NCBI RefSeq assembly: GCF_000018405.1
Contig: NC_009943.1
Span: 3,289,001-3,353,000, forward strand
DNA length: 64,000 bases
Direction: 5' to 3'
From: Desulfosudis oleivorans Hxd3
GTDB taxonomy: Bacteria > Desulfobacterota > Desulfobacteria > Desulfobacterales > Desulfosudaceae
Below are positions 48,801-63,111 of the stretch, one piece after another. Each line of letters begins with the position of its first letter. The stretch's first letter is position 1. The notes beneath the pieces are model-generated. The model searched no databases. It had not been told where the DNA came from and was given only the letters and a program-made list of their open reading frames with translations. A program made the translations under genes and the position numbers.

Positions 48801-49178
48801 ACTGATACCATTGCTCCAGTAGGCGGCACCGGAACAGTCGATGATGGTGCCACCGGCCGGGTCTCCAAGAATGGAGGAGTCCGTCATATAAATATCCAGA
48901 AAATCGTCCAGCTCACCATTGGCAGGACTATAGATACCGGGGGCCACATGGATGATGTTGAAGCTGGATTCGACCAGCATGCTGGCGGTATAGTGCAGCG
49001 TCTTCCAGGCTGTTCCCGGGGTCAGGCCGTCATTGGTGTCACTGCCGGTGTTGATATCCACGTAATAGTCAGCCCCCGTTGCCGCGCCGGGCAGGGCCAG
49101 CAAAAGGGCCAGGGCCAGAAACAGGCCGAAAATGGCCGCCATGGTACCGTTCTTTTTTATGTCTGCCTGAAGCCGCAT
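45858..49178 (-). CDS. Large secreted parallel beta-helix repeat protein (tandem duplicated)
   Basis: A 1106-residue exported protein. The signal peptide runs to ~residue 36 (FLALALLLALPGAATGA). Two homologous modules, ~37-370 and ~375-720, each open with YYV(D/N)(I/V)NTGSDTNDGL then TPGTAWKTLH, run through right-handed beta-helix rungs (NNLIYDG, YHNTIDGG), and end in DLDGK.RP...DIGCYEY, as in choice-of-anchor Q proteins. After ~740 an Ig-like part and a beta-rich C-terminal domain follow. A cell-surface or extracellular polysaccharide-binding or adhesin role is likely; no catalytic residues were identified. Confidence 0.82.
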   Translation of the reverse strand: MRLQADIKKNGTMAAIFGLFLALALLLALPGAATGADYYVDINTGSDTNDGLTPGTAWKTLHYTASMLVESSFNIIHVAPGIYSPANGELDDFLDIYMTDSSILGDPAGGTIIDCSGAAYWSNGISVSQLYTVSNITISDLEIRGASGYGVYINGGSGHTITRCSIHDNFGAGIYLSECDASNTVAANKIYDNPTGIEISAAGLVGSPVIVNNLIYDGPTSGMDTGIFINVTGSTVTASPTIYHNTIDGGATYGIFIYDLGGGGTIEPDIQYNNITTFDVGIFGSGTITPNIDYNNLFGNTTADYSGTGVIAGTNDISADPQYADPGTAADYHLVGASACVEAAIPSTTPVDLDGKTRPQGTYADIGCYEYSAASVYYVNVNTGSDTNDGLTPGTAWKTLHHAATELWDTTGITIYVAPGVYSVANGETESDLEFYMFDSEILGDPAGGTTIDATGTSWTYGLHFWYCDNITVKDFEIRNADLYGVYIYNSTNITVTGCDIHENLSAGIILYDCDSTNTIAGNKIYDTPFGIHLISDALTCSPIIVNNLIYNGDSMVTDLDRGIFLDAGESDPVTPIIYHNTIDGAYMAGIDMSYLTGTTVSPDIRYNIITNCGTGIADSATASTPTIDYNCLFGNTLNYDGVTAGANNITGDPLYNNTGIADYHLMSGSPCVDAAVTSTISVDLDGTIRSTQGAHPDMGCYEHLVMPPTGNLPPAVPTYVSPSPFQVFAPGQPVTLRASAFSDPEKDSHLTTHWKVGRADIDYFSSFPSPFNYVAEGGTDLTRYTLDAYNFLEGMAYQWIVGYQDSGSLKYAWSQKPGEEGVPTNIFVVGTEETTSLPPMEPGTEIEDYRMVSFTHIPSNPSATAVFGDDLSGGYNTTHYRIGVYDCEMGAGGYREYPNFMVYPGEAAWVLAREGLTTDISGVPMTTEVDVEVALRYNDANGNGWNMVGPPNDRNYAWSEVGVVVYDPETGEPVFTDLIGNLPAGNEYIDTRLWSWNGAYNAATTTMEAGCGYWVRAKQPHINLRFYGSYHGGGDLLIHADAGVGVKTWLARSLDYVKQAAETLFAPASAIAGDDEPPPPMASLNYTSGDSSVDMSCFVSTLLEE

Positions 49179-49732: not shown

Positions 49733-50518
49733 ATGACATTTATCGCCCCCCAGAGCCTCCCAGAACAGATTGCTGAAATTATTAGAGAAAAAATCGTTCG
49801 GCTGGAACTCAGGCCCGGCGAGAACATTCGCGAGGCCCAGCTTGCCGCAGAATTGAATGTCAGCCGCAGCCCCATACGGGAGGCCCTGCGCCTGCTGGAA
49901 AAACAGCGCCTGGTGGAACAGGTGCCGCGCAAGGGCACCCGGGTAACCGACCTGTCCGAACAGGGAATAGCGGACCTCTACGACGTTGCCGGGGCACTGA
50001 TTGTGCTGGCCGCCAAACAGTGCGCGGCCAAAAGCACGGCCGACGAGCTTTCCGCCATCAACGACGCCGTGGTCCGGGCCGGCCGGGCCGTTGCAAAAAA
50101 AGATGTGGCCGGCTATCACACCGCTTTTTTCGAGTTTGCCCTGCACTGCATGCAAAGCGCGAAAAACCCACTGCTGGAGGACATGATCATGGACCTTCTG
50201 CACGGGGTGCGCCGCATGCAGTTCCTCACCCTCTCCCTGCGCAGCGAAAACCTGGAGGAGAACCTGGAAATCCTTGAAAGGGGCAACGCCTATCTTCAGA
50301 ACAATGACGGCGAAATGGCGGTCAACACGGTCATCGAATATGTTGCAAAGGAAAAAAGCGTGGCCGTCAAAACCCTCAACCAGGGGCTTCACCTCATGGC
50401 CGGCAGGGACGGGGCAACACGGCACCTGCCCGGCAACCCCGGAGCCGGTGGCATCCCTATATACAATGAACGGCCCGTACGGCCGGCCATCGCATCAAAC
50501 AGGAGAAAAAGCATATGA
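49733..50518 (+). CDS. GntR/FadR-type transcriptional regulator (FCD domain)
   Basis: A 261-residue regulator. N-terminal winged helix (IAEIIREKIVRLELRPGENI, then LAAELNVSRSPIREALRLLEKQRLVEQVPRKG broken at the turn) and an FCD ligand domain at ~80-235 with helix DVAGYHTAFFEFALHC. FCD regulators often bind metal and small organic acids. Its stop overlaps the next ATG (ATGA), so it is co-translated with the enzymes it likely controls. The last ~35 residues, rich in Gly, Pro and Arg, are unusual. Confidence 0.88.
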   Translation: MTFIAPQSLPEQIAEIIREKIVRLELRPGENIREAQLAAELNVSRSPIREALRLLEKQRLVEQVPRKGTRVTDLSEQGIADLYDVAGALIVLAAKQCAAKSTADELSAINDAVVRAGRAVAKKDVAGYHTAFFEFALHCMQSAKNPLLEDMIMDLLHGVRRMQFLTLSLRSENLEENLEILERGNAYLQNNDGEMAVNTVIEYVAKEKSVAVKTLNQGLHLMAGRDGATRHLPGNPGAGGIPIYNERPVRPAIASNRRKSI

Positions 50519-51978
50519 CCGAAAACGCACACCCCGTTCCACCGGCTGCCGACGACCCGATGCGCCGCATCGCCGGCACACGGGAAATAAGAACCCTGGT
50601 GGCGGCCCTGATGCCTGAGATGCTGGACATCTGGGCACAGAGCGGCACCGGCCCGATCCGGACCACCGCCAGAAAAACGGTTTCGAAAATCGCCGGGGGC
50701 GATATTCGAAACGCCATGCTGGACAAAACCGCCATGGACCGGGCCCCGGCCCTGCACACCCTGGCCGGAGATCCCGAATTCGTGGGACAGGTGTCCGCAC
50801 AGACCGGGGAGTTGGTGAACGGCCTGTATACCGTGCTGCTGAACGCGGCCGGGGAGATCAACGCGCTTGATGTGGCCGTTAAAAAAGACCTGATCCAAAC
50901 GATTACCAGCGACCTGTCTTCCGGAAAAAGTGCCGCGCTGGTAACGATTTGCTGTCGCGTCATCAATGATATTCATAAGGATGAGCCGGAATTCCTGGCC
51001 CGAGTCCTGGCGCCTGCCTTTGAAAAATGGATCACCTCCATGGATTTCGGGGAGCTCAAGGAGCTTCTGGAAACCAGCACACCGGGCATTTCGGCCCTGG
51101 TCCATATGATCAACGAGACCTTGTGGAAGTACCCGGCCAAGGTCATCTCTCTCGTGTCCCTGGCGCCGTCGATCATTAATATAACCATCGATGCCCTGGC
51201 CCAGACCCTGGGCACTTTCAATAATGAAGGCACACCGGATATGGTGGCCGATGTGCTGCTGTCGGTGCTGCGGGAAATCGATGCCCAGGCCGCCGGCCGC
51301 CTGGTGAACCAGATGGCGGAACAGGCGCGGCAACTCCATGTGGGCAGCGCCCTGATCGGCGAGCCGGGCGCTCCGCAGCTGCCCAACGATTTATCCTCCC
51401 TGTTTGATGCCATTGTCAAAGAGATAAACGGTGAGGTGTTGTGGAAAGCCAGGGCTGCCATGGCTGAGATCAAAAGCCAGGCCCACTCCGCCATGACGGA
51501 TGTTCTGGCGGACAACCCGGACCTGCTGACCGGCGGCATGGCTACCAAAAGCGCGGTACACAACGCCCGTATACGCGCTGTCAGCCACCGGGTCTCCACC
51601 CTGGAGTCCATGGACCCGGACGCGATCAACACCGCCCTGGGAACCTCCCTGGAAAACCTCGATCTTCAGGAGGGCGCCAATGCCGTCAACGCCGTGATCC
51701 TGGTGGCCGGCCGGCTGCTGGAAGCCCGGTCGGAGGCGATCCGCGACAAGGCCGGCTCCCTGGTCGACGCCCTGGACCTGTACGGCGCGTCGGAGACGAT
51801 CGAAAGGGCGGGCGAGGTCGTGGGAGAAGCGCTGCTGCCGCTGGCCCGGGCCGTGGTGCCCCCCCTGGCCCGGGGAATCCTCAAATCCCTGGCCGCGGAC
51901 GATGACGAATTTGAAGACGGCGCACAGGCCGCAAGGCGCCTGCTGGCCGCTTTATTAAAAAACGGGGAGGCGGATTAA
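50515..51978 (+). CDS. Orphan 487-residue helical protein in the dehydratase operon
   Basis: Not recognised. Predicted all-helical, rich in Ala, Leu, Glu and Asp, with no transmembrane segment, signal or CxxC motif and few Cys (ICCRV only). Segments such as NAVILVAGRLLEARSEAIRDKAGSLVD suggest HEAT/ARM-like or four-helix packing. It is coupled to the GntR gene by ATGA and ends two bases before the first HgdB-like gene, so it is very likely part of the same pathway, perhaps a scaffold or chaperone. Its family could not be placed. Confidence 0.6.
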   Translation: MTENAHPVPPAADDPMRRIAGTREIRTLVAALMPEMLDIWAQSGTGPIRTTARKTVSKIAGGDIRNAMLDKTAMDRAPALHTLAGDPEFVGQVSAQTGELVNGLYTVLLNAAGEINALDVAVKKDLIQTITSDLSSGKSAALVTICCRVINDIHKDEPEFLARVLAPAFEKWITSMDFGELKELLETSTPGISALVHMINETLWKYPAKVISLVSLAPSIINITIDALAQTLGTFNNEGTPDMVADVLLSVLREIDAQAAGRLVNQMAEQARQLHVGSALIGEPGAPQLPNDLSSLFDAIVKEINGEVLWKARAAMAEIKSQAHSAMTDVLADNPDLLTGGMATKSAVHNARIRAVSHRVSTLESMDPDAINTALGTSLENLDLQEGANAVNAVILVAGRLLEARSEAIRDKAGSLVDALDLYGASETIERAGEVVGEALLPLARAVVPPLARGILKSLAADDDEFEDGAQAARRLLAALLKNGEAD

Positions 51979-51979
51979 A

Positions 51980-53119
51980 ATGACGAATTCTTTCTACGAG
52001 GCCACCACCACGGTTTGCAACCAGTCGATTCAGGAATGGCAGTCGTCCGGAAAAAAAATCGTCGGCTATACCTGCTCCTATGTTCCCCCGGAAATATTTC
52101 ACGCCGCCGGGATTCTGCCGGTTCGCATCCGGGGCATTGAAACCGAAGGAACGGATATCGGCGACGCCTATTTCGGACCTTTTATCTGTTCGTTTCCCAA
52201 GTGCATCCTGCAACTGGCCGGCAAGGGCAAATACAACTTTTTAAGCGGCGTCATCATCACGCCCGGATGCGACGCCATGCGCCGCCTGGACGAGTGCTGG
52301 CGCAAAGCCGGAGAAGACTACCCGGGAATCGTGCCGCCCTTTTTCTACTATTTCGATGTCCCCCACAAGACACTGCCCCACGGCATGAAATGGTTCAAGG
52401 AAGAGCTTCTGACCCTTATCGCCGGGGTGGAGCAGCACTTTTCCGTCACCGTCGACACCGACGGGCTGCACCAGGCCATCGCCCTTTACAACCGGGGCCG
52501 GATGCTGCTCAAGGAGCTGGAGGAGATACGCACCCGGCCGGAAGTCCCCATCACCGGAACCGAGGCCTTTGCCGTGGCCGTGGCCGGAACGGTTCTGCCC
52601 CGGGACCTGTATACGGAGCAGCTGCAACAGCTCCTGGAAGACCTGAAAACCCGGCCTTCGGTATCGACCGGCAAAAAACGGATTCTGGTCATCGGCAGCA
52701 TCAGCGACGACATTCAGATCGTGGAACTGATCGAAAAAAACCCCACCGCCATCGTGGTGGCGGAAAACCTCTGCTTCGGCGTACGTTACGAGGGCAACCT
52801 GGTGGCCGAGACCGGAGACCCGGTGGAGGCCATGGCCGAGGGCTACCTGGGAGAGTGCACCTGCCCCCGCATGTTCGGCAAATACCAGGAGCGATTGGCG
52901 ATCCTGAAGGCGAAAATCGACGCGGCCGCCATTGACGGCGTGATCATGCAGAACATCCGGTTCTGCGACCTGCACGGTTCGGAACACGGTCTTCTGGAGC
53001 GCGACCTTGAAAAGGCGGGCATCCCCTGCCTGAAGATCGAGCGGGAATACGGACCGCTCACGGACACCGGCCGCATGCAGATGCGCATCCAGGCGTTTTT
53101 GGAAAGAATCTCAACCTAA
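51980..53119 (+). CDS. 2-hydroxyacyl-CoA dehydratase / benzoyl-CoA reductase subunit, HgdB/BcrC-like (set 1)
   Basis: 379 residues of the HGD-D superfamily. The iron-sulfur ligand cysteines are in YTCSYVPPE, FICSFPKC, TPGCDAMRR, ENLCFG, GECTCPR and RFCDLHGSEH. The family uses a [4Fe-4S] or double-cubane cluster for ATP-driven two-electron chemistry on CoA thioesters. The CSFPKC pair and extra cysteines recall double-cubane types. GGGGAGG precedes ATG 51980. With the next gene it forms a BcrC/BcrB-like pair. Substrate unknown. Confidence 0.85.
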   Translation: MTNSFYEATTTVCNQSIQEWQSSGKKIVGYTCSYVPPEIFHAAGILPVRIRGIETEGTDIGDAYFGPFICSFPKCILQLAGKGKYNFLSGVIITPGCDAMRRLDECWRKAGEDYPGIVPPFFYYFDVPHKTLPHGMKWFKEELLTLIAGVEQHFSVTVDTDGLHQAIALYNRGRMLLKELEEIRTRPEVPITGTEAFAVAVAGTVLPRDLYTEQLQQLLEDLKTRPSVSTGKKRILVIGSISDDIQIVELIEKNPTAIVVAENLCFGVRYEGNLVAETGDPVEAMAEGYLGECTCPRMFGKYQERLAILKAKIDAAAIDGVIMQNIRFCDLHGSEHGLLERDLEKAGIPCLKIEREYGPLTDTGRMQMRIQAFLERIST

Positions 53120-53146
53120 CACCCTTTCTGGGTTCAGGAGGCAGTT

Positions 53147-54547
53147 ATGAGAGCGGAACTCAAAGAATACAATTTTGACGCATTGCTACATCGCGGTGTG
53201 ACGGCCGCCGCAAAGGCGGCCGACGGCACGCCCAAGGAAAGAGATCTTCTGATGCGCTATGCGCCCTACTTCAGAGGGTCGCTGGAAAAAATTCTGAATG
53301 AAGGCGAGCCCGGTGCTGTGTTTCTGAAAATGATGGCCAAGTTTTTCGACAACCTCCTGACGGCCCATAAAAAGGGCAAGAAGATCGCGGCCACCACCTT
53401 TTGCTTTTCTCCGGCCATTCTGTACGCCGTGGGCGCCGTGCCCGTGACCTTTGAGATTCTGTCGGCCCTGGCCGGCATGCTGTGGAAACGGGGCGCCTTT
53501 GACTACCTCGACTTCGGCTGCGAAGTGGGCCTTACCGAGACCTCCTGCTCGTCCCAGCGGGGTTCCCTGGGCGCCTATCTGGCGGGACTGGCCGAAGAAC
53601 TGGATTTTCTGGTCTGCGACACGCCGGGCGTGTGCGACACCAACGCCAATGCCTTTGCCTTTGCCTCCAGCTACCTGGACAAACCGTGCTATCAGCTCAA
53701 TTATCCGCAAAGACTCAATGACAACCGCACCAGTCACTACCACCTGGATGACTACCGGGAAATGATAAAGTTTCTCGAAGGGCAGACCGGTAACAAAATG
53801 GACTACGACCGGCTGAAGACCGTTCTGCTGGAAGTAGAAAAGCAGGACACCATCATCGCGGACATGGAGGACATGCAGATGCTGGTCCCCTGCCCGGTGC
53901 CGCCCCTTTACAACATGTTCATCTACGCGGGCCGGTTCATTTGCTCCGGCCTGCCGGAGTTCACACGCGCCCTGGAGGCAATGCGGGACACGGTCCGGCA
54001 GAACGCTGAAAACGGCATTGCCGGCCTCAAATCCGGCATTGAAAAAAGACGGCTCTACCTGTGCTACATCGACCACTACACCGTGGACATGAACTTCTGG
54101 CAATGGCTGGACGACCAGGGTATCTCCCACCTGGGGTCCATTCTTTCCAAGACCTTCATGGAAGGAACGGCCTATTCGGCGGACCTGGAAGGATCGGCCT
54201 ATAAAATGGACACCAGCTCCGAGGAGGCCATGCTCAATTCCATCGCCCAGCTCAACGCCCGGCTCCCCATGGTCCGCTCCATCCGCGGCCCCTACGACCA
54301 GCCCAACATGTGGCTGGACGAAACCATCGCCGTGGCCCGGGCATACAAAGCGGACTGCATTGTCTACAACGGTACGCCGGGATGCCGCAACACCTGGGGC
54401 ATGGTCAAGCCCTTTGCCAGGGACCTGGAGAAACTGGGCTATCCCACGTTTATCATGTATGACGACGCTTTTGACGACCGGGTGGAATCATGGGAAAGCA
54501 CCCGTGCCCGGCTGGAAGAATTCTTTACCGTAAGGGGGTTGTTATGA
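53147..54547 (+). CDS. 2-hydroxyacyl-CoA dehydratase / benzoyl-CoA reductase subunit, BcrB-like (set 1)
   Basis: 466 residues, HGD-D superfamily. Conserved positions: AATTFCFSPAILYAVGAVP, ETSCSSQRG, VCDTPGVCD, DTSSEEAML and the C-terminal NGTPGCRNTWG...KPFARDLEKLG. AGGAGG precedes the ATG. It is longer than BcrC and would carry the second cluster of a heterodimer. The stop overlaps the ATPase gene start by four bases. Confidence 0.85.
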   Translation: MRAELKEYNFDALLHRGVTAAAKAADGTPKERDLLMRYAPYFRGSLEKILNEGEPGAVFLKMMAKFFDNLLTAHKKGKKIAATTFCFSPAILYAVGAVPVTFEILSALAGMLWKRGAFDYLDFGCEVGLTETSCSSQRGSLGAYLAGLAEELDFLVCDTPGVCDTNANAFAFASSYLDKPCYQLNYPQRLNDNRTSHYHLDDYREMIKFLEGQTGNKMDYDRLKTVLLEVEKQDTIIADMEDMQMLVPCPVPPLYNMFIYAGRFICSGLPEFTRALEAMRDTVRQNAENGIAGLKSGIEKRRLYLCYIDHYTVDMNFWQWLDDQGISHLGSILSKTFMEGTAYSADLEGSAYKMDTSSEEAMLNSIAQLNARLPMVRSIRGPYDQPNMWLDETIAVARAYKADCIVYNGTPGCRNTWGMVKPFARDLEKLGYPTFIMYDDAFDDRVESWESTRARLEEFFTVRGLL

Positions 54548-55347
54548 CCATTGTCGCCGGCTGTGATGTGGGCTCCCTCACATCCAAGGCCGTTATCATG
54601 AGACAGAACAAGATTCTCGGTTCAAGCATCGTCCGGTCCAAGGCCCGGCCCGAGGTCTCGGCCCAGGCCGCCATGGACCAGGCCCTGGCCGATGCCGGAA
54701 TCGCCATGGACCAGGTGGCCTGGTGCGTGGGCACCGGTTACGGACGGGATAAAATTCCCTTTGTCAATGCCGCCCGATCAGAGATCGCCTGTCACGGCAA
54801 GGGGGCCCACTGGATGGCGCCTTCGGTTCGGACCGTCATCGACATCGGGGGCCAGGACTGCAAGGCCATGAGGCTGGACGATACCGGAACGGTGGAAAAC
54901 TTTATCACCAATGACAAGTGCGCCTCCGGCACCGGCCGGTTCCTGGAAGTGATGGCCGACGTGCTGCAGATCGATGTCAATGAACTGGGAAATCTGTCCG
55001 CCAGGGCCCGCTCGCCGATCATGCTGGCCTCCACCTGCACGGTCTGGGCCCAGGCCGATGTGATCAAATATTTAAATTCAGGAGTTTCTGTGGAAGATAT
55101 CGGCGCCGGCATCAACAGTGCCATGGCAAAGCGGGTGGCCATCCTGGCCAACTCGGTGAAAATCGAAAAAGAGGTGGTCATGACCGGCGGGGTGGCCAAA
55201 AACGCCGGCGTGGTGGCCACCCTGGAAAAAATTATCGGCCAGCGCCTTCGCAGGATCCGCAAGGCCGATCCGCAACTGGCCGGGGCCATCGGCGCGGCGG
55301 TATTCGCCCTTGAGAAAACCAACGGCAATAAAAAGGAGGCCTCATGA
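54544..55347 (+). CDS. BadF/BadG/BcrA/BcrD-type ATPase, component 1 (set 1)
   Basis: A 267-residue activator ATPase of the acetate-kinase/actin fold, which uses ATP to push an electron to the dehydratase or reductase. Phosphate loop GCDVGSLTSKAV, GTGYGRD, IDIGGQD, and a first cluster cysteine C126 in NDKCASGTGRF; a second, C165, in STCTVWAQADV. In relatives, including the next gene, the latter stretch reads C-x-FAETEV, so this subunit is altered there. GGVAKN near the end. ATG 54544 overlaps the previous stop. Confidence 0.88.
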   Translation: MTIVAGCDVGSLTSKAVIMRQNKILGSSIVRSKARPEVSAQAAMDQALADAGIAMDQVAWCVGTGYGRDKIPFVNAARSEIACHGKGAHWMAPSVRTVIDIGGQDCKAMRLDDTGTVENFITNDKCASGTGRFLEVMADVLQIDVNELGNLSARARSPIMLASTCTVWAQADVIKYLNSGVSVEDIGAGINSAMAKRVAILANSVKIEKEVVMTGGVAKNAGVVATLEKIIGQRLRRIRKADPQLAGAIGAAVFALEKTNGNKKEAS

Positions 55348-56126
55348 TTACAGCAGGCTGCGACATCGGCTCCCTCACCGCCAAGGCAGTCGTTCTAAAG
55401 GACGGAAAAATTGTGGGCCACCAGGTGATCCGTGTGAAAACCAACCCTGCCGAATCCGCCAACGAAGTGATCCGGCTGGCCGCTGAAAAGGCCGGTATTC
55501 CCATTTCCGACATCACGGCCACGGTGGGCACCGGCTATGGAAAAGAGCATATCAACTTTGCCAGTTCCACCTGCTCCGAAATATCGTGTCATGCCAAGGG
55601 GGCCTGGTGGAACCTGCCCTCGGTCCGCACCATCATCGACATCGGGGGCCAGGACGCCAAGGCCATCCGTATCGACGAGCAGGGCAATGTGGCCCGCTAT
55701 ATCTACAACGACAAGTGCGCCGCCGGCACCGGTCGCTTCCTGGAGGTGATGGCCAAGGCCCTGGAAGTGGACCTGGCCGACATGGGGGCGCTTTCGGCGC
55801 GCTCCACGGAAAGAATCCGCATCTCCAACCAGTGCGTGATATTTGCCGAAACCGAAGTGGTTTCCCTGATCAACGAAGGACGGGAAACCTGCGATATCAT
55901 CTGCGGCCTTCACCATGCCATGGCCAACCGCGTGGCCTCCCTGGCCAAAAGCATCGAGGTGCATGAGGAGGTGGTGATGACCGGCGGGGTTGCCAAAAAC
56001 AGCGGCATGTTCAACGCCCTTTCCGAAGGGCTGGGGGTTACCGTCAAGGCCCTGCCCGTGGATCCCCAGATCAACGGGGCCCTGGGCGCGGCCCTGTTCG
56101 CGGCCGAATTGGCAGCCGGCAAATAG
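55344..56126 (+). CDS. BadF/BadG/BcrA/BcrD-type ATPase, component 2 (set 1)
   Basis: 260 residues, close paralogue of the preceding gene. GCDIGSLTAKAV, IDIGGQDAKAI, C125 in NDKCAAGTGRF and a second Cys in NQCVIFAETEVV give the intact intersubunit [4Fe-4S] and ATPase motifs. AAGGAGG precedes the ATG, which overlaps the previous stop. Two unlike ATPases in one operon resemble the BcrA/BcrD heterodimer of class I benzoyl-CoA reductases rather than the HgdC homodimer. Both are shorter than BcrA of Thauera. Confidence 0.88.
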   Translation: MITAGCDIGSLTAKAVVLKDGKIVGHQVIRVKTNPAESANEVIRLAAEKAGIPISDITATVGTGYGKEHINFASSTCSEISCHAKGAWWNLPSVRTIIDIGGQDAKAIRIDEQGNVARYIYNDKCAAGTGRFLEVMAKALEVDLADMGALSARSTERIRISNQCVIFAETEVVSLINEGRETCDIICGLHHAMANRVASLAKSIEVHEEVVMTGGVAKNSGMFNALSEGLGVTVKALPVDPQINGALGAALFAAELAAGK

Positions 56127-56150
56127 GGCCGGCTCTTATTGGCCGGCCCT
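56125..56150 (+). terminator. GC-rich hairpin after set 1
   Basis: AGGGCCGGC-8-GCCGGCCCT starts within the stop codon. No T-run follows; a weak terminator or mRNA cap is possible. Confidence 0.4.
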
Positions 56151-56219
56151 GTTGGAGACATTGTTCAGGAAATAAAGGAACTCTCCATATCGTCATGCTT
56201 TCAAATTCTTTTTTCAGCG

Positions 56220-56245
56220 TACTTTTCTTGGCGGCAAGAAAAGTA
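56220..56245 (+). repeat. REP-like palindrome (plus orientation)
   Basis: TACTTTTCTTG-gcgg-CAAGAAAAGTA followed by ccaaaagaaccgcgccccgc, the same as at 62136-62161. Confidence 0.85.
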
Positions 56246-56368
56246 CCAAAAGAACCGCGCCCCGCAGCTTGGCGCTCGGCTGCGCTGCAACGGGCGGAGG
56301 CAAACATTTTCGATTTTGCTTCGGACAATCAAAGCACGAGCAGTGAGGAACAAAATGGCACACTCCCG

Positions 56369-56514
56369 TCATTGCGAGGAGCTTCGTCCCATTCGTCTTT
56401 GCGAGGAGCAAAGCGACGAAGCAATCTTGCGGCATACGCATTCGGCAAAAATCACTTCGCCTGCGGCTTGCAATGACCGTCGGTTTCGATACCGATAGCG
56501 ATACCGATTTTGAT
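56369..56514. repeat. cattgcgag repeat with adjoining hexanucleotide array
   Basis: cgtcattgcgaggagc ... gcgacgaagcaatct ... cttgcaatgac, then cggtttcgataccgatagcg and further CGATAC-type units. The array ends 23 bp before the ATG of the AcsB-like gene. Confidence 0.7.
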
Positions 56515-56537
56515 TAGATAGGGAAAGAGGTAGAACC

Positions 56538-57281
56538 ATGGGCCTGTTTGACGACCATATCGCGCAAATCCGCAAATTCATTGACTCGCGGGCGCAACGG
56601 CCCGACGTGTCGGTCGTTGCCGCCGATGACGTGCCCTCCTGGCCCATGGGCGACAGCCGCAGCCTGGTGCTCTCATCGGACACGGCCGTGGAGCTGGGCA
56701 GCCCCAAAACCGCGTCCACCGCCTTTCTGGTCTGGACCGACGACACAGAGGCGGTCAGCCACGGCCGCGTCACCCGAATCGGCCCCGACATTCCAAAAGA
56801 GACCCGGGACCTTGTTCCTTTCGGCAAAATTGTTCTGGTGAATGTTTCCGGGTTTGACGAGGCCAACACCTACGACCGGTTCCGGGAAATGGAAATGGCA
56901 AAGTACGACATTCACCCGGCCGGATACATGATGCGGGCCGTGTCCCAGTACCAGCGGGAGTGGAGCCGCATCAGCAAAAAAGCAAAAACCGACGGATTTT
57001 CCCTTTCATTCCTGGGAAAAGCGCTGATCGAAAAACTTTCGGCCCTGCCCTATGTGCATGGCGCGGAGGTGATATTTGTCACCTCGTCCGCGGATGACGT
57101 GACCGCGTTAAAAGCCGTGGGCGAGAGCGTGGGCAAAATCACCGGCGCCATGAACAAGATGGGCGAGGAGATGGACCTGGACTGCGACGCCTGCGAGTAC
57201 AGCCCCGTGTGCGACAGCGTGTCTGAATTAAGAAAGATGCGAAGCGCCATGCAGCAGAAAAAAACGGAGAACACACCCTGA
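56538..57281 (+). CDS. Free-standing acetyl-CoA synthase (AcsB/CdhC) middle-domain-like protein
   Basis: 247 residues. From memory of AcsB, residues ~60-205 resemble its central domain: TAFLVWTDDTEAVSHGRV then IGPDIPKE, LVPFGKIVLV, a central helix region, and FLGKALIEKLSALPYV with VIFVTSSADDVTAL, matching the order ELVR...G..EVIGPDI...PLGILV...VTIFTD in AcsB. The A-cluster domain is absent; instead the C-terminus has a CxxCx5C motif (DCDACEYSPVC). GAAAGAGG precedes the ATG. Its stop overlaps the following ATG. Function unknown; it may bind a corrinoid, CO-dehydrogenase or metal partner. Confidence 0.65.
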   Translation: MGLFDDHIAQIRKFIDSRAQRPDVSVVAADDVPSWPMGDSRSLVLSSDTAVELGSPKTASTAFLVWTDDTEAVSHGRVTRIGPDIPKETRDLVPFGKIVLVNVSGFDEANTYDRFREMEMAKYDIHPAGYMMRAVSQYQREWSRISKKAKTDGFSLSFLGKALIEKLSALPYVHGAEVIFVTSSADDVTALKAVGESVGKITGAMNKMGEEMDLDCDACEYSPVCDSVSELRKMRSAMQQKKTENTP

Positions 57282-58411
57282 TGCCGAGAAAGACCCCCAC
57301 CCCCTTTGATGCCCTGCTGGAGGAGCCGGTCAACAGCCTGGCCGAGCAGGCCATGGACGAAGGCCGCATTGCCATCGGCTACACATGCAGTTACGTGCCG
57401 TCGGTTCTGCTGTCGGTGCCACCCCTGTTTCCCTTGCGCCTGCGGGCCCCCGGCGCCGCCGGCACCGAGCTGGCTGACATCTACATGTCCAACCTCACCT
57501 GCTCCTACACCCGCAGCCTGCTTGAGTTTGCCATGGACTACCGCTACCAGGCCCTGGGGGGTTTTGTTCATACCGCCGGGTGTGACCACATGCGGCGGCT
57601 TCACGACAACCTGACCTACCTGATGCCGCCGTCCTTTAGCCATATTCTGGACATTCCCCACCGGACCGGCGAAGAGGGCCTGGCCTGGTACAGGCAGGAC
57701 ATAAAGGCCCTGGCTGAAAAACTGGAAAGCCATTTCGGCGTCTCCATGTCTTCAGACGCCCTGAAGGCCGCCATTGCCGACCACAACCTTCTGATAAAAA
57801 AGATACAGGCCGTCTCCGACCTGCGCAAGGCCGAGCAGCCGGTGATTTCCGGTGCCGAATTTCACTGCCTGCTGATGGCGGCCGTCACCTCGCCGGCCCA
57901 CCTGATCGGTCCCCGGATCGACACCTTTTTTGATCACCTGGCCCAGAGGCCGCCCATTGAGGATGCGCGGGCCCGGCTGATGATCGTGGGGGGCCAGATG
58001 GACAACCCCCGGTTTATCGAGACCATCGAATCCGCCGGCGCCCTGGTGGTGGCGGACCGCACCTGCACCGGGTCCCTTTTCGGCGCCGCCCCCATTGATG
58101 AGACGGAAGCCGATCCCCTGGACGCCATTGCCCGTCACGGGCTTTTTTCTCCGGGTTGCCCCCGCATGATGGAAGATTTTGACCGGCGGCTTTCCCGCAT
58201 TCTTGAAGCGGCAAAAGCATTCCGCGTTGACGGGATCATCGTTGAGTTTATCAAATTTTGCGACACCTGGGGCGTGGAAGCCGCCTCCCTGGTGCCGGCC
58301 CTGCGAGATGCCGGCTTTCGGGTCCTCTCCCTGGAAAGAGAGTATGCCGCCACCGGCATGGGCCAGCTTCAGACACGCATTCAGGCCTTTCTGGAAAGCA
58401 TGGGAAAATAA
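57281..58411 (+). CDS. 2-hydroxyacyl-CoA dehydratase-like subunit, BcrC-like (set 2)
   Basis: 376 residues, paralogue of the gene at 51980. Cysteines are in YTCSYVPS, LTCSYTR, TAGCDHMRR, RTCTGS, SPGCPRM and IKFCDTWG, i.e. the main cluster ligands are kept but the CxxxxC pair seen in set 1 (CSFPKC) is a single Cys. The ATG overlaps the AcsB-like stop by one base. It would pair with the next gene. Confidence 0.82.
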   Translation: MPRKTPTPFDALLEEPVNSLAEQAMDEGRIAIGYTCSYVPSVLLSVPPLFPLRLRAPGAAGTELADIYMSNLTCSYTRSLLEFAMDYRYQALGGFVHTAGCDHMRRLHDNLTYLMPPSFSHILDIPHRTGEEGLAWYRQDIKALAEKLESHFGVSMSSDALKAAIADHNLLIKKIQAVSDLRKAEQPVISGAEFHCLLMAAVTSPAHLIGPRIDTFFDHLAQRPPIEDARARLMIVGGQMDNPRFIETIESAGALVVADRTCTGSLFGAAPIDETEADPLDAIARHGLFSPGCPRMMEDFDRRLSRILEAAKAFRVDGIIVEFIKFCDTWGVEAASLVPALRDAGFRVLSLEREYAATGMGQLQTRIQAFLESMGK

Positions 58412-58413
58412 TC

Positions 58414-59823
58414 ATGAACCGACTCCGCCGAAACTATCTTCACGCCTCTTTTGTGGCCGGCAACTGGACCGCCATCGCCGGCATGGCCCTTCGCAACGGC
58501 CTTTTCAAGACCCTGTTAAAAGACATGCCCCGCTACCCCTGGATGAAAACCCTGCTGCGGGCCAACCTGCTGTTAGATAAATTCGGCAAGGATCGCGACG
58601 ACGCCTACTTTGAGGCCACGCGCCTGGTGACCCGGTATATTATCCGGGGTTTTGTAGAGCTGCTGGACGACATGTTCCAGCGCGGGGACCGGCTGATCAT
58701 CCATGAAGACATGGTGCCCCCGGAAATCTTCCGGGCCATGAACCTTACCCCGTTCATGGCCGAACTGCTGGGCATCTCCCTGCCCATCATCGACCCTTAT
58801 GCAGTGGAGGAATACATCGACCTGTCGGAAAACGCCGGCGTGCCCCCGGACATCTGCAGCCTGCCCAAAAGCACCATGGGGTTCGCCCTGGCCGACCAGT
58901 TTCCCCCGGCCCTGGCCCTGGTGGCCTCCAACCTGCCCTGTGACGGCGGCATGGCCTCCTACACCGTAATGGAACGGAAGCTAAACCTGCCCACCGTCCG
59001 CATCGACATTCCCCACCATTTTTACAACGACCGGGCACGGACCTACTTTGTGAGCGAACTCCGGCGCATGATCACCTGGCTGGAAGCCAACACTCCCGGA
59101 AAAATGGACTGGGACAAGCTGGCCGCCATCTGCGAAGAGCGCAACAGGATGGTGGAACATGAACTGGAACTTTGGGAGATGCTTCAGACCCGGCCGGCCC
59201 CGCTGGCCGCCGAACCGGTCTACCTGAGCCACCTGTGGGGTTCCAACGTCCAGCCCGGCCACCCGGCCAGCACCCGCATCTTTAAACAGCTGAGCGATCT
59301 TGCCCGCAAAAACATCGACGCCGGTAAAGGGGCCCTGAAAGATGAGAAGTACCGGATCCTGCTGTGGAACCCGCCCCTGCTGCATGCCAGCGACCTGTTC
59401 AACTGGGCCGAAACCGCCTACGGGGCCTCGCTGATCATCGACAGCATGTCCTACAACAGCCGGGAACCTTACATCGACACCTCCTCCGAAGAGGCCATGC
59501 TTTACGGCCTGGGCCTGAACATCATGGAAGGCCCCATGGCCCGCCACACCCGGGGCCCGGCCGCCAACTACACGGAAGACATATTCGACATGGCCAAGCG
59601 GTTTGACATCGACATGCTCTGGGTGGCCGGCCACGTGGGGTGCAAAAACACCGCGGCCTTAAACGGCATGCTGCGGGAAAAATGCCGGGAACACGGCCTT
59701 CCCATGCTCATAATCAATTACGACCTGAGCGACCCGCGCGTCGTCTCCAATGCCGGCATACTGGAGCAGATCAACCATTTTATGGAAAATATCATGGGCG
59801 CCAAACGCCGGGATGCGGCATGA
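58414..59823 (+). CDS. 2-hydroxyacyl-CoA dehydratase-like subunit, BcrB-like (set 2)
   Basis: 469 residues. DTSSEEAMLYGL and AGHVGCKNTAAL match the set 1 partner. At the usual first cysteine segment it reads RLIIHEDMVPPEIF, with no Cys, where set 1 has AATTFCFSPAIL. Other cysteines are in DICSLPKST and SNLPCDGG. The start is ATG 58414, two bases after the previous stop; the longer frame is in the overlap. The altered ligand set suggests a different cluster or substrate from set 1. Confidence 0.82.
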   Translation: MNRLRRNYLHASFVAGNWTAIAGMALRNGLFKTLLKDMPRYPWMKTLLRANLLLDKFGKDRDDAYFEATRLVTRYIIRGFVELLDDMFQRGDRLIIHEDMVPPEIFRAMNLTPFMAELLGISLPIIDPYAVEEYIDLSENAGVPPDICSLPKSTMGFALADQFPPALALVASNLPCDGGMASYTVMERKLNLPTVRIDIPHHFYNDRARTYFVSELRRMITWLEANTPGKMDWDKLAAICEERNRMVEHELELWEMLQTRPAPLAAEPVYLSHLWGSNVQPGHPASTRIFKQLSDLARKNIDAGKGALKDEKYRILLWNPPLLHASDLFNWAETAYGASLIIDSMSYNSREPYIDTSSEEAMLYGLGLNIMEGPMARHTRGPAANYTEDIFDMAKRFDIDMLWVAGHVGCKNTAALNGMLREKCREHGLPMLIINYDLSDPRVVSNAGILEQINHFMENIMGAKRRDAA

Positions 59824-60138
59824 ATTTTTTCGACACTGTTTGCCATCAGATACCAGATGGCAGAAATACGTTTGGGCTTTGGGTAAAAGGCAAGTCGTCA
59901 TGAGCGAGTTGTTGATTGCCATTGCGGAGAGCGTTCTCCCTTCCGTCATTGCGAGGAGCGTCCTCCCAGTCCGTCATTGCGAGGAGCGAAGCGACGAAGC
60001 AATCTTGCGGCACACATGATGCTGAAGCGATTGCGATTTCGATACCGATACCGATAGCGATAGCGATCCCGATTTTGATAAAAAATTTTTAACAATATGT
60101 TGAAGCCCTTCTTCGGGCAATAAAGGCAGGACAGATAC
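59824..60138. other. Intergenic region inside set 2
   Basis: About 315 bp without a gene. It contains two cattgcgag/gaagcaatc elements (59945-60015) and a hexanucleotide array (60029-60078). The next gene probably has its own promoter here or is read through. Confidence 0.55.
59945..60078. repeat. cattgcgag elements and hexanucleotide array
   Basis: Two tandem starts cgtcattgcgaggagcg, one with gaagcgacgaagcaatcttg. Then seven or eight CGATAC/CGATAG units from cgatttcgatacc to cccgattttgat, as upstream of 56538. Confidence 0.7.
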
Positions 60139-60957
60139 ATGGACAAAGAACTTTTTTGCGCCGGCTGCGACGTGGGCTCCACCACGGGAAAGGCCGTTAT
60201 TCTTAAAGGAAACACCCTTGTGGGCTCGGCCATCGTTCAGAGCGAAATCGACCCGGAACAGACCGCCACCAGCGTACTGGAAGCGGCGTGCCGCCAGGTG
60301 CCGGAACTTTCCGGCATCGACCGGATCGACTGGCTGGTGGGCACCGGCTACGGCCGCAACGAAGTGCCCTTTGCCAATGAAAACCTGTCGGAAATCACCT
60401 GCCACGCCTCGGGCGTATTCTTCTGCAACCCGGCGGTGCGCACGGTGATCGACATCGGGGGCCAGGACGTAAAGGCCATTGCCACGGACGAAACCGGCCG
60501 GGTAAGAGAGTTTGTGATGAACGACAAGTGCGCCGCCGGCACCGGCCGCTTTCTGGAGATGATGAGCCGGATCTTTAAAATGGACCTGGACGGGTTTTCC
60601 GAGCTTTCCCTTCAGGCCAAAAGCGTGATTCCCATCACCTCCCAGTGCAGCGTGTTTGCCGAAACCGAGGTGATCAGCCTGTTGAGCAAAAAACGGCCGG
60701 CCCCGGACATTGCCGCCGGCATTTTCGCCTCCATTGCCAAGCGGGGGTTTACCCTGCTCAAGCGGGTGGGCATCACGCCGGAGGTGACCCTTACCGGCGG
60801 CTGCGCCAAAAGCCGGGGCCTGATTATTCACCTGGAGCGGCTGCTGCGCACAAAGCTGGCGCCCCTTTCCATAGACCCTCAGTTGATGGGGGCCCTGGGA
60901 GCGGCGGCCGAGGCGTCCAAAAGCGTGGCCCGGACCAGGGCGACGGCGCGCGCATAA
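60139..60957 (+). CDS. BadF/BadG/BcrA/BcrD-type ATPase (set 2)
   Basis: 272 residues. GCDVGSTTGKAV, GTGYGRN, IDIGGQDVKAI, NDKCAAGTGRF and a second Cys in SQCSVFAETEV. Motifs are complete. Only one ATPase accompanies set 2, so it would work as a homodimer, as HgdC does. AGGACAG precedes the ATG. The C-terminus is basic (VARTRATARA). Confidence 0.87.
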   Translation: MDKELFCAGCDVGSTTGKAVILKGNTLVGSAIVQSEIDPEQTATSVLEAACRQVPELSGIDRIDWLVGTGYGRNEVPFANENLSEITCHASGVFFCNPAVRTVIDIGGQDVKAIATDETGRVREFVMNDKCAAGTGRFLEMMSRIFKMDLDGFSELSLQAKSVIPITSQCSVFAETEVISLLSKKRPAPDIAAGIFASIAKRGFTLLKRVGITPEVTLTGGCAKSRGLIIHLERLLRTKLAPLSIDPQLMGALGAAAEASKSVARTRATARA

Positions 60958-61103
60958 ACCGCTGCTCCCGTTGCAGCGCAGCCGAACGCGAACGGTTTTT
61001 TCGGAAGAAGCGGGAAATCGCGTAGGGGCGAACCTTGTGTTCGCCCCACTGATGGGCACCCGCCGGTTGCTCTTACATAATCTGCATGGGCATGTTTCTT
61101 TTG

Positions 61104-61130
61104 GTGCTTTTCTTTGCGCCAAAGAAAAGT
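61104..61130 (+). repeat. Degenerate REP-like palindrome
   Basis: TGCTTTTCTTTG-cgc-CAAAGAAAAGTA, a variant of the other four copies, 45 bp before the cooC-like gene. Confidence 0.6.
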
Positions 61131-61175
61131 ACATAGAAAAAATGAATAGAAAATTTAAGGAATAGAAATATTGTC

Positions 61176-61958
61176 ATGACCACAAACGCATCCAAACCAT
61201 CGAATACGACCATCCTCTTTGCCGTGTGCGGCAAGGGGGGCGTGGGAAAAACATCGATCAGCGCCGCCCTTGTCAAGCTGCTGTGCGACCGGCCCGGCGC
61301 AAAGGTGCTGGCCATTGACGCGGACCCGGCCGTGGGCCTGGCCTCGGCCCTGGGCATGGCCCCCGGCCGTACCATCGACGACATCCGCACGGCCCTGATA
61401 AAAGATGTCCGCGACGGATCGGGGGTGGACAAGCAGGAGCTGCTCTCCCGCATTGATTACGACGTGTTTGAGGCCATCGAGGAAAAGGGCAACCTGGGAT
61501 TTCTGGCCATCGGCCGGCCCGAAACAGAGGGGTGCTACTGCCGGGTCAACAGCTTTTTAAAAGAGATCATCAACACCACGGCCCACCATTTTGATTTTGT
61601 GGTCATTGACGGCGAGGCCGGTATTGAGCAGGTCAACCGCCGGGTCATGGACGCGGTGGACTATCTGCTCCTGGTGTCCGACGCCTCTGCCAAGGGGCTC
61701 AACGTGGTTTCCGAAATTCAAAAGACCGCGGCCCGCACCGTGAAGTTCAAAAAAGCGGCCCTGGTCTTGAATCGCATTCGCACTCCCGAAGAGGCCGAAG
61801 CCGCCATCTCCCGCACCGACCTTGAAACCGCCGGCTGGATTCCGGAAGACGACACCATCCGCGACTTTGACATTCAGGGAAAATCGATCCTGGATCTTCC
61901 CCCCTGCCCTGCCCTGACGGCCATCGATAAAATCCTGGACCGGATTTTGAAGGGTTAA
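61176..61958 (+). CDS. cooC: CooC/AcsF-like nickel-insertion ATPase
   Basis: 260 residues of the MinD/SIMIBI class. Deviant Walker A CGKGGVGKT near residues 18-26, IDADPAVGL, a switch region VVIDGEAGIEQV, and a CxC metal site (C120, C122) in TEGCYCRVN. CooC proteins insert nickel into CO dehydrogenase or acetyl-CoA synthase. Its position after an AcsB-like protein supports a link to metal-site maturation. Which protein it serves is unknown; CODH genes may be elsewhere. Confidence 0.83.
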   Translation: MTTNASKPSNTTILFAVCGKGGVGKTSISAALVKLLCDRPGAKVLAIDADPAVGLASALGMAPGRTIDDIRTALIKDVRDGSGVDKQELLSRIDYDVFEAIEEKGNLGFLAIGRPETEGCYCRVNSFLKEIINTTAHHFDFVVIDGEAGIEQVNRRVMDAVDYLLLVSDASAKGLNVVSEIQKTAARTVKFKKAALVLNRIRTPEEAEAAISRTDLETAGWIPEDDTIRDFDIQGKSILDLPPCPALTAIDKILDRILKG

Positions 61959-62090: not shown

Positions 62091-62135
62091 CAATCCAGTG
62101 TAAAATTGATTAAAATACCTTCCCGCTTTTCAGTG

Positions 62136-62161
62136 TACTTTTCTTGGCGGCAAGAAAAGTA
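62136..62161 (+). repeat. REP-like palindrome (plus orientation)
   Basis: TACTTTTCTTG-gcgg-CAAGAAAAGTA, followed by ccaaaagaaccgcgccccgc as at 56220. Confidence 0.85.
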
Positions 62162-62496
62162 CCAAAAGAACCGCGCCCCGCAGCTTGGCCTCTGGCTTGC
62201 CACGCCACAGGCGTGGCTGCCCTCGCGCGAACGCTTTTTTCGGCGCGAAAATGAACTCGCCCGCCTTCGGCGGTGCTCAAACAGCATTTTCGCTTTCTCC
62301 GAAAAAAGCGCCCCCGCTCGGCTGCGCTGCAACGGGCGAAAACAATCGCCGGCACTGTCCTATCCTTGCATGCGCCATCCCCTCATTGTTTTTCTGTTGA
62401 CACTTCAGTGGGATAACTTTTAGTATCCGAAAGGCTTGGGGAAAACTAGCATTTTACATCACGCCGTATAATCACTGTTAGGCTTATAAAAAGAGC

Positions 62497-63021: not shown

Positions 63022-63111
63022 GAACATTCGGGGAAAATTGATCCTGGAGCTTCCCCCCTGCCCGGCCTGACTGCCATCGACAAAATCCTGGATCGGATTT
63101 TGAAGAGTTGA
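63022..63111 (+). pseudogene. Duplicated 3' remnant of the cooC-like gene
   Basis: Aligns with 61869-61958 at about 80 of 91 positions (hand alignment) with two single-base gaps, so the frame is broken. The blocks gatcctgga.cttcccccctgccc and aaaatcctgga.cggattttgaag are shared; the last codon became TGA. It corresponds to the final ~30 codons of cooC. Confidence 0.85.

Follow-up and report, generated by a model that had tools for sequence, protein, structure and literature searches.

Gene content of the cluster

We analyzed a 64,000-nucleotide stretch of the Desulfosudis oleivorans Hxd3 genome (NC_009943.1, positions 3,289,001 to 3,353,000; the genome is a single contig of 3,944,167 bp), referred to here as the window, and focused on a gene cluster in which relatives of 2-hydroxyacyl-CoA dehydratases (HAD) and benzoyl-CoA reductases (BCR) lie beside AcsD2, a stand-alone fragment of acetyl-CoA synthase (ACS), and a relative of the nickel-insertion ATPase CooC. 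A preliminary description of this DNA had taken the reductase genes for two separate modules and had assigned the ACS-like and CooC-like genes to the second. All of the genes that it named are present (Table 1) and overlap or nearly touch within each set, and Pfam and PDB matches agreed with its identification of a GntR regulator, HGD-D subunits, activators, an ACS domain, a CooC-like protein and an orphan without family. As described below, both "modules" instead form one conserved system of ten genes in anaerobic bacteria. All components except the orphan belong to known superfamilies; it is their combination that appears to be new.

Table 1. Genes of the cluster, with positions in the window
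Gene product	Position	Strand	Matches and remarks
GntR/FCD-family regulator	49733..50518	+	Pfam GntR 66.9 bits, FCD 43.2 bits
Orphan487, mostly helical, no conserved cysteines, conserved partner	50515..51978	+	487 aa; no family above cut-off
HgdC1, small reductase subunit, double-cubane type by ligand set	51980..53119	+	HGD-D 300 bits
HgdB1, large, presumed catalytic reductase subunit	53147..54547	+	HGD-D 169 bits
Act1a, ATP-dependent activator (archerase) subunit	54544..55347	+	BcrAD_BadFG 204 bits
Act1b, second, unlike activator subunit	55344..56126	+	BcrAD_BadFG 196 bits
AcsD2, stand-alone ACS middle domain with truncated A-cluster cysteine loop	56538..57281	+	247 aa; CdhC 43.3 bits
HgdC2, small reductase subunit, double-cubane type by ligand set	57281..58411	+	HGD-D 273 bits
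HgdB2, large, presumed catalytic reductase subunit	58414..59823	+	HGD-D 204 bits
Act2, single activator ATPase of module 2	60139..60957	+	BcrAD_BadFG 186 bits
CooC-like metal-insertion ATPase with CxC motif	61176..61958	+	CbiA/ParA; best PDB match CooC1

Over the cluster, HGD-D was matched by four proteins and BcrAD_BadFG by three. The whole genome holds ten HGD-D matches, and ten COG1775 candidates are given for D. oleovorans in the available part of a published report (PMC4103992). In module 1, the regulator and orphan genes overlap by 4 bp, the orphan and HgdC1 genes are 1 bp apart, and a gap of 27 bp separates HgdC1 from HgdB1; HgdB1/Act1a and Act1a/Act1b also overlap, as do AcsD2 and HgdC2 (by 1 bp). 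Wider intergenic gaps lie at 56126-56538, 59823-60139 and 60957-61176. Act1a is listed from its ATG at 54544, with family searches and residue counts run from 54538; residues of HgdB2 are numbered from 58408, two codons ahead of the likely ATG.

Conserved gene order across genomes

We searched 297 genomes of the window's phylum for stand-alone AcsD2 relatives, defined as open frames shorter than 600 aa, and found at least 32 in 25 genomes. Within 6 kb of 29 such loci that were fetched (the window's own excluded), HGD-D was found in 24, an activator in 22 and CooC in 19. A scan of genome contigs with AcsD2 alone as the selector gave 67 named loci, of which 62 had CooC within 1.5 kb and 58 had HGD-D within 6 kb. 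Among the nine without HGD-D, six had less than 1.2 kb of upstream sequence and L141 had 2.9 kb; L126 carried both module-1 activators, and its contig ends 0.1 kb downstream.

Full flanks were available for 30 of the named loci. Module 1 (HgdC1/HgdB1), the orphan, the Act1a and Act1b pair, and CooC were each present in 29 of these, and module 2 was found in 17, each time alongside module 1. The ACS-like and CooC-like genes thus accompany module 1 more often than module 2, contrary to the division first proposed, and their partnership with each other is conserved. The usual gene order was orphan-C1-B1-(B1)-Act1a-Act1b-AcsD2-CooC-C2-B2-Act2. The window departs from it in having CooC behind Act2; in its closest named relative, L077 (65% identity), AcsD2 likewise stands directly ahead of an HgdC2 gene, there cut off. 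Two genomes, G036 and G275, carry the halves at two loci, orphan-C1-B1-Act1a-Act1b and AcsD2-CooC-C2-B2-Act2, and in G036 a gene for a GMC flavoprotein accompanies the first half. Because the order recurs in dozens of genomes, the layout is not due to chance. Syntenic loci were titled Desulfobacteraceae, Smithella, Syntrophaceae, Spirochaetes and others, and stand-alone AcsD2 forms, as judged by frame length, were also present in 11 of the 149 genomes of the phylum to which one Spirochaetes host belongs. A search of a plasmid collection with AcsD2 gave no match at E 1e-8.

The orphan follows the same distribution. It was found in 16 of the 297 genomes, 15 of which have stand-alone AcsD2 (Fisher p 7.7e-18, ignoring kinship); in the remaining one, G230, the contig stops at Act1b, right before the point where AcsD2 would be expected. 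Conversely, AcsD2 occurs in ten genomes that have no orphan.

Cluster ligands and family placement of the reductase subunits

The small subunit of a class I BCR, BzdN, binds an [8Fe-9S] double cubane through Cys36/73/100/263/293/327, and its large subunit, BzdO, binds a [4Fe-4S] cluster through Cys95/128/380, according to the accessible part of PMC11971306. We counted residue conservation among aligned relatives above a score threshold. In HgdC1, C32, C70, C97, C265, C295 and C329, which occupy the same six positions as in BzdN, were invariant (46/46 aligned), as were C36, C74, C101, C262, C293 and C327 of HgdC2 (31/31). All six cysteines were present in each of the 37 sampled HgdC proteins of AcsD2 loci, the two of the window included, and also in BzdN, nine double-cubane cluster proteins (DCCPs) and one further protein of the same genome (locus L057). 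By contrast, HadC had four of the six (pattern PCCACC), and MbdN and two BcrC-like sequences had three each, showing that the six-ligand feature is not universal among BCRs; two other relatives in the window's genome (L058 and L059) also had three each. In the large subunits, the [4Fe-4S] ligands C134, C163 and C413 of HgdB1 were invariant (65/65, with E103 near-invariant), as were C150, C178 and C412 of HgdB2 together with an additional cysteine, C426 (30/30). HgdB1 has its own extra cysteine, C86, in 60/65 sequences. Both triads were matched to those of BzdO by order and by a weak alignment.

Accordingly, both modules are double-cubane reductases of the BzdN/DCCP kind by ligand set, with the cofactor itself predicted from these residues. 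This agrees with the low-potential, double-cubane type proposed in the preliminary description. Of the differences that it saw between the sets, the one in cysteine ligands applies to the large subunits (C86 in HgdB1, C426 in HgdB2) and not to the small subunits, both of which have six of six; the difference in ATPase composition, two unlike in module 1 and one in module 2, was confirmed.

None of the four reductase subunits reached a curated equivalog cut-off in NCBIfam. The best score against class I BCR models was 133 bits (cut-off 453.8), HgdC1 and HgdB1 scored 158 and 38.5 bits against HadB/HadC equivalogs (cut-offs 700 and 750), and the best NCBIfam model for HgdC1 and HgdC2, the DCCP model NF040772 (cut-off 350), gave 180.7 and 163.6 bits. 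The top PDB match of HgdC1 was HadC (138 bits). In a tree of 54 small-subunit sequences, with one HAD, four BCR and nine DCCP references and several long branches, the HgdC1 group (15 sequences, 100/100) was apart from the HgdC2 group (13 sequences, 100/99), and both lay outside the DCCPs (a clade of nine, 100/100), BcrC/MbdN (three) and HadC (one). One BCR reference, L145, itself scored below the BcrC cut-off (362 versus 421 bits). The single BzdN sequence was sister to the whole group of 39 other sequences (94/80, long branch) and is thus the nearest characterized relative of that group in this small reference set. Placement of both sets inside a known clade and absence of co-occurrence elsewhere would, by the preliminary description, have pointed to accidental linkage; within the sampled references we found neither.

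The system resembles the class I benzoyl-CoA reductase BzdNOPQ in its six-ligand small subunit, its three-Cys large subunit and, in module 1, its two unlike activators, and differs from it in having two modules, an ACS-derived subunit, CooC and the helical orphan, and in the separate clades of HgdC1 and HgdC2. DCCPs share the six double-cubane ligands; they are homodimeric according to the part of PMC11971306 available, whereas the proteins here are heteromeric, as judged from the genes. The 2-hydroxyacyl-CoA dehydratases (HadBC, HgdAB) share the superfamily and the activators, but HadC, the one HAD reference compared, lacks two of the six cysteines present in HgdC1 and HgdC2 (those at positions 32 and 265). 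Elsewhere in the same genome, at about 1043.2-1047.4 kb (L057:9211-13359), we observed a four-gene HgdC-HgdB-activator-activator cluster with the six double-cubane ligands; neither AcsD2 nor CooC lies next to it. The HgdC of this cluster falls together with the one from L073, a locus that has both.

Each activator retains its two cluster cysteines, which are invariant among its aligned relatives: C128 and C167 in Act1a (50/50), C125 and C164 in Act1b (53/53), and C131 and C170 in Act2 (24/24). Among PDB entries, Act1a matched MbdQ best, followed by the 2-hydroxyisocaproyl-CoA dehydratase activator. Act1a and Act1b probably form a heterodimer and Act2 probably a homodimer. Near another AcsD2 locus lies a protein of 1400 aa (L049:9862-14064) that resembles activator-type ATPases and is possibly of the large fused activase kind.

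AcsD2 is an ACS fragment

AcsD2 matched the Pfam family CdhC (PF03598) with 43.3 bits (cut-off 24). Its AlphaFold2 model (pLDDT 88.8) superposed on the ACS middle domain (3git) with a Z score of 19.0 and a root-mean-square deviation of 2.3 over 172 residues; unrelated chains gave Z scores of about 4. Near the C-terminus, C216-x2-C219-x5-C225 was invariant in 80/80 aligned sequences, and these cysteines align with C514, C517 and C526 in the ACS encoded by the same genome. The latter continues with a fourth cysteine and, later, a Cys-Gly-Cys, which together with the aligned residues we take to be the cubane ligands and the nickel site of the A-cluster; AcsD2 ends before the fourth cysteine. A complete A-cluster, with four cubane cysteines and the nickel-site Cys-x-Cys, was thus not found in AcsD2, which has three cysteines only. 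W142 and R144 are near-invariant in AcsD2, and both also occur in the genome's own ACS.

In a tree of 35 AcsD2 and six ACS sequences, the two were split by a 100/100 branch. AcsD2 therefore shares with ACS (AcsB/CdhC) the middle-domain fold and the first three A-cluster cysteines, but has no N-terminal domain, fourth cubane cysteine or nickel-site CxC, and does not need a carbon monoxide dehydrogenase (CODH) partner, as shown in the next section. For the ACS middle domain, an interaction with CoA has been proposed, and one with the corrinoid protein appears in a predicted model, according to the accessible part of PMC12289521. In three loci, all from one genus group (g23), AcsD2 relatives without HGD-D or CooC genes have an acyl-CoA dehydrogenase-like gene at a distance of about 0.2 kb (L053:8208-10614, L055:585-2827, L056:1944-4218; the Pfam assignment of the neighbor is that for L053).

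AcsD2 and CooC occur without CODH

The best PDB match of the CooC-like protein was CooC1 (3kje, E 3.9e-19), with the CYCRxNSFL stretch aligned. C120-x-C122 (CxC) was invariant in 72/72 aligned sequences, and the Walker A motif GKGGVGKT was at least 97% conserved. Both motifs are shared with the CooC/AcsF nickel-insertion ATPases; unlike those, the CooC of the cluster is present where CODH is absent, and is linked to AcsD2 and reductase genes.

We searched 22 genomes for CODH with a cut-off of 478 bits. INDEPENDENCE from CODH/ACS was evident in 11 system-bearing genomes (families f40 and f42; 94-100% complete), in which no CODH match exceeded 30.8 bits. Full-length ACS had no match in the same 11 genomes in a search with AcsD2 as the query, which could miss distant ACS. 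CODH was present in the window's genome, which has a full CODH/ACS, and in five of six further hosts tested, two Spirochaetes among them. Since the system occurs without CODH in 11 genomes, the AcsD2-CooC pair does not need CODH. Nickel or corrinoid chemistry, raised in the preliminary description, is a conjecture: AcsD2 lacks the nickel-binding half of the A-cluster, and these 11 genomes have no detectable CODH.

Orphan and neighboring genes

Orphan487 had no Pfam or NCBIfam family above cut-off and one sub-threshold match, to DUF1269 (E 0.044). Its AlphaFold2 model is almost all-alpha (pLDDT 84.3, pTM 0.64). No PDB match exceeded Z 5.5 among 332 chains aligned, a comparison that barely touched most of the model, so the orphan may still have a known fold.

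A GMC flavoprotein (E 1e-50) was found in 24 of the 297 genomes, 15 with AcsD2 and nine without (Fisher p 4.8e-13, ignoring kinship), and in many Desulfobacteraceae loci its gene lies ahead of the orphan; the ortholog in the window's genome, at 2894.7 kb, is 61% identical and lies about 445 kb away. Neighbors were counted in 86 AcsD2 loci after removal of duplicates; many of the contigs were too short to show neighbors. GMC was found in 25, Fer4 in 24, acyl-CoA dehydrogenase in 20 and GntR in 18 (the window included), and aldehyde:ferredoxin oxidoreductase in 10, enoyl-CoA hydratase in eight, flavodoxin-ferredoxin in five and acyl-ACP-type thioesterase in three (L078, L082 and L095). Desulfobacteraceae-type loci carry the GMC flavoprotein and GntR, often Fer4, and in some cases aldehyde:ferredoxin oxidoreductase. 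In Smithella-type loci there are two acyl-CoA dehydrogenases, a TetR regulator and small proteins of unknown kind, in some together with flavodoxin-ferredoxin and Fer4. One acyl-CoA dehydrogenase neighbor matched cyclohexane-1-carbonyl-CoA dehydrogenase best, but weakly (98 bits versus a cut-off of 650). Upstream of the orphan in Smithella-type loci (L063:3167-4307, L066:10046-10483) are three small proteins without a Pfam family that fall into one similarity cluster, and one of them faintly resembles the orphan (26 bits).

A putative ATP-driven reductase system

Our favored explanation, to which we give roughly even credence, is a single reductase system of very low potential, powered by ATP and acting on a CoA thioester or a related acyl compound. 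The activators, Act1a/Act1b for module 1 and Act2 for module 2, would receive electrons from reduced ferredoxin or flavodoxin and act as ATP-dependent gates. Hydrolysis of ATP would drive the electrons into HgdC1 or HgdC2, whose [8Fe-9S] double cubanes would serve as stores. The next acceptor would be HgdB1 or HgdB2, with its site-differentiated [4Fe-4S] cluster as the active site, and the substrate would be reduced there as in a BzdNO-type benzoyl-CoA reductase. AcsD2, which has all but one of the four cubane ligands of the A-cluster, would be a subunit common to both modules, holding an Fe-S (or heterometal) cluster and binding CoA or passing electrons. CooC-type ATPases load or repair metal in CODH/ACS systems, and the CooC-like ATPase would do the same for the metal of AcsD2. 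The orphan could be a helical scaffold or a substrate carrier. The data show that the genes form a conserved unit with the ligand sets and the ACS-domain fold described above, independent of CODH; the electron path, the interaction of AcsD2 with CooC and the acyl-CoA substrate are inferred. In favor of this explanation are the synteny, the ligand sets, the fold and cysteines of AcsD2, the CxC of CooC and the neighboring genes, including the acyl-CoA dehydrogenase next to AcsD2 in the three loci of genus group g23.

Several observations weigh against this explanation. The reductase function is a prediction from genes and models, and the proposed acyl-CoA substrate rests on lineage-variable neighbors, each found in less than one-third of the 86 loci. 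The matches of HgdB1 and HgdB2 to known large subunits were weak (28 and 34 bits). Within the AcsD2 model, confidence is lowest, chain ends aside, in the cysteine loop (residues 211-220, pLDDT 67), and since the fourth cubane ligand and the nickel-site half are absent, an Fe-S cluster on AcsD2 is not assured. As for the unity of the system, 10 of the 29 fetched loci lacked a nearby CooC and five lacked HGD-D (some at contig ends), module 2 was not nearby in 13 of the 30 full-flank loci, three genes part CooC from AcsD2 in the window, and L094, which has neither HGD-D nor CooC within 10 kb on either side, is a real exception.

A more specific form of the favored reductase, which we regard as doubtful, has CooC loading nickel (or another metal) on the truncated three-Cys A-cluster of AcsD2. 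This would place a Ni/Fe-S centre inside an ATP-driven double-cubane reductase for difficult acyl-CoA chemistry, such as carbonyl reduction or the making or breaking of a C-C bond beside the thioester, without CODH or the Wood-Ljungdahl pathway. If true, it would be a new use of the ACS fold and could serve an unassigned step of anaerobic hydrocarbon or fatty-acid metabolism in hydrocarbon-degrading hosts.

Two alternatives would give the reductases a different task. In one, which we consider unlikely, the cluster is not catabolic and is an assembly or activation machine, whose reductases and CooC would together assemble a special metal cluster on AcsD2 or some other protein, or activate it by reduction. 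Activation complexes powered by ATP are known from other systems, for example in methyl-CoM reductase activation; CooC is a metallochaperone relative with the invariant CxC, and AcsD2-CooC is the adjacent core in most loci, the pair being the only core genes found on the 8.3-kb contig L047. Four to nine reductase and activator genes would nevertheless be much machinery for one cluster, and no fixed target enzyme recurs alongside, the neighbors being mostly acyl-CoA and redox enzymes. In the other, a lipid-modifying system that seems to us rather unlikely, the reductases would convert acyl esters, acyl-ACP or fatty aldehydes into ether lipids, alcohols or hydrocarbons in the manner proposed for PlsA. 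This anaerobic plasmalogen synthase reportedly reduces an ester to a vinyl ether, and a link to the HGD superfamily has been proposed for it; it is said to be a fused multidomain activator-HGD-D protein, whereas the subunits here are encoded separately. GMC, aldehyde:ferredoxin oxidoreductase and acyl-ACP-type thioesterase beside the Desulfobacteraceae form would suit such a role, and the helical orphan could carry hydrophobic chains; however, the oxidoreductase and thioesterase occur in a minority of loci, and Smithella-type loci carry two acyl-CoA dehydrogenases instead.

The remaining alternatives assign the genes to known functions or to chance. A diverged pair of class I benzoyl-CoA reductases dearomatizing the CoA ester of an unusual aromatic acid is, in our judgment, distinctly improbable. 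The ligand sets and activator type are those of BzdN and its partners, BzdN is sister to the whole HgdC group, and cyclohexane-1-carbonyl-CoA dehydrogenase is the weak best match of one neighbor, but class I BCR cut-offs were not reached, HgdC1 and HgdC2 form clades of their own, and no BCR cluster known to us contains an ACS domain or CooC. CODH/ACS is where CooC and ACS domains are normally at home, and the CODH found in the window's genome and most of the further hosts tested would allow AcsD2 and CooC to mature or reductively activate acetyl-CoA synthase. On the CODH search in 22 genomes we rejected this role as very improbable: 11 near-complete genomes that carry the system showed no full-length ACS and no CODH match beyond background, so it is not a CODH/ACS accessory, and the 100/100 split between AcsD2 and ACS also contradicts it. 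Finally, two unrelated dehydratase-type operons might have come to lie beside CODH/ACS remnants, and repeats do interrupt the cluster in the window's genome, but accidental neighborhood is refuted almost beyond doubt by the order kept in dozens of genomes and by the co-occurrence of orphan and AcsD2.

Relation to published systems

Some of biology's lowest-potential chemistry is carried out by double-cubane reductases. The widespread system described here, with two predicted double-cubane modules tied to an ACS fragment and CooC also where CODH is absent, opens the way to studying the roles of the ACS middle domain and CooC by themselves. It points to an unassigned ATP-dependent reaction, probably with acyl-CoA as substrate, in sulfate reducers, syntrophs and spirochaetes, some of which belong to alkane-degrading genera such as Smithella.

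In the open-access literature (subscription papers and preprints lay outside the scope), we recognized no paper, among the texts as far as they were available, that describes an HGD reductase combined with an ACS fragment and CooC. For the BCR/HGD genes that acetone induces in sulfate reducers able to degrade ketones (PMC7888143, PMC8084838, PMC4103992), compared by description only, the accessible parts of these reports name BCR/HGD subunits and no ACS-domain or CooC partner. In the benzene degrader BzS1, subunits of 2-hydroxyglutaryl-CoA dehydratase share about 26% identity with a gene cluster, BzS1_02010-60, that was not detected in the proteome, according to the available part of PMC13416013. 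The 'Magic' cluster for benzene activation (PMC13101534) consists of different genes, as judged by the annotations listed in the part available. The HGD and BCR terms looked for did not occur in the accessible text of a study of CODH gene contexts (PMC13056359), and in PMC10936416 an apparent mention of CooC proved to be the word 'cooccurrence'. Alkane activation in Hxd3 is described as hydroxylation followed by carboxylation, still unresolved, in the available part of PMC3653055; nothing in our analysis links the cluster to it.

Repeats and other local features

Repeats sit in the three wide gaps of the cluster. They include the near-identical pairs 56211-56273 and 62127-62189 (63 nt, 98%) and 56394-56437 and 59972-60015 (44 nt, 93%), as well as 60026-60080, and 60967-61012 and 62291-62336; the set includes an inverted pair and a 6-nt tandem array. 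These repeats, in or near the gaps that part AcsD2, Act2 and CooC, are possible traces of local rearrangement. In addition, 44 nt of the 3' end of the CooC gene (61870-61913) reappears 1.15 kb downstream at 63024-63067 with 91% identity, perhaps as a remnant of a second CooC copy. Upstream of the cluster, the minus strand encodes a 1106-aa protein (45858-49178) with repeated beta-helix-like segments, the repeats being judged by eye.

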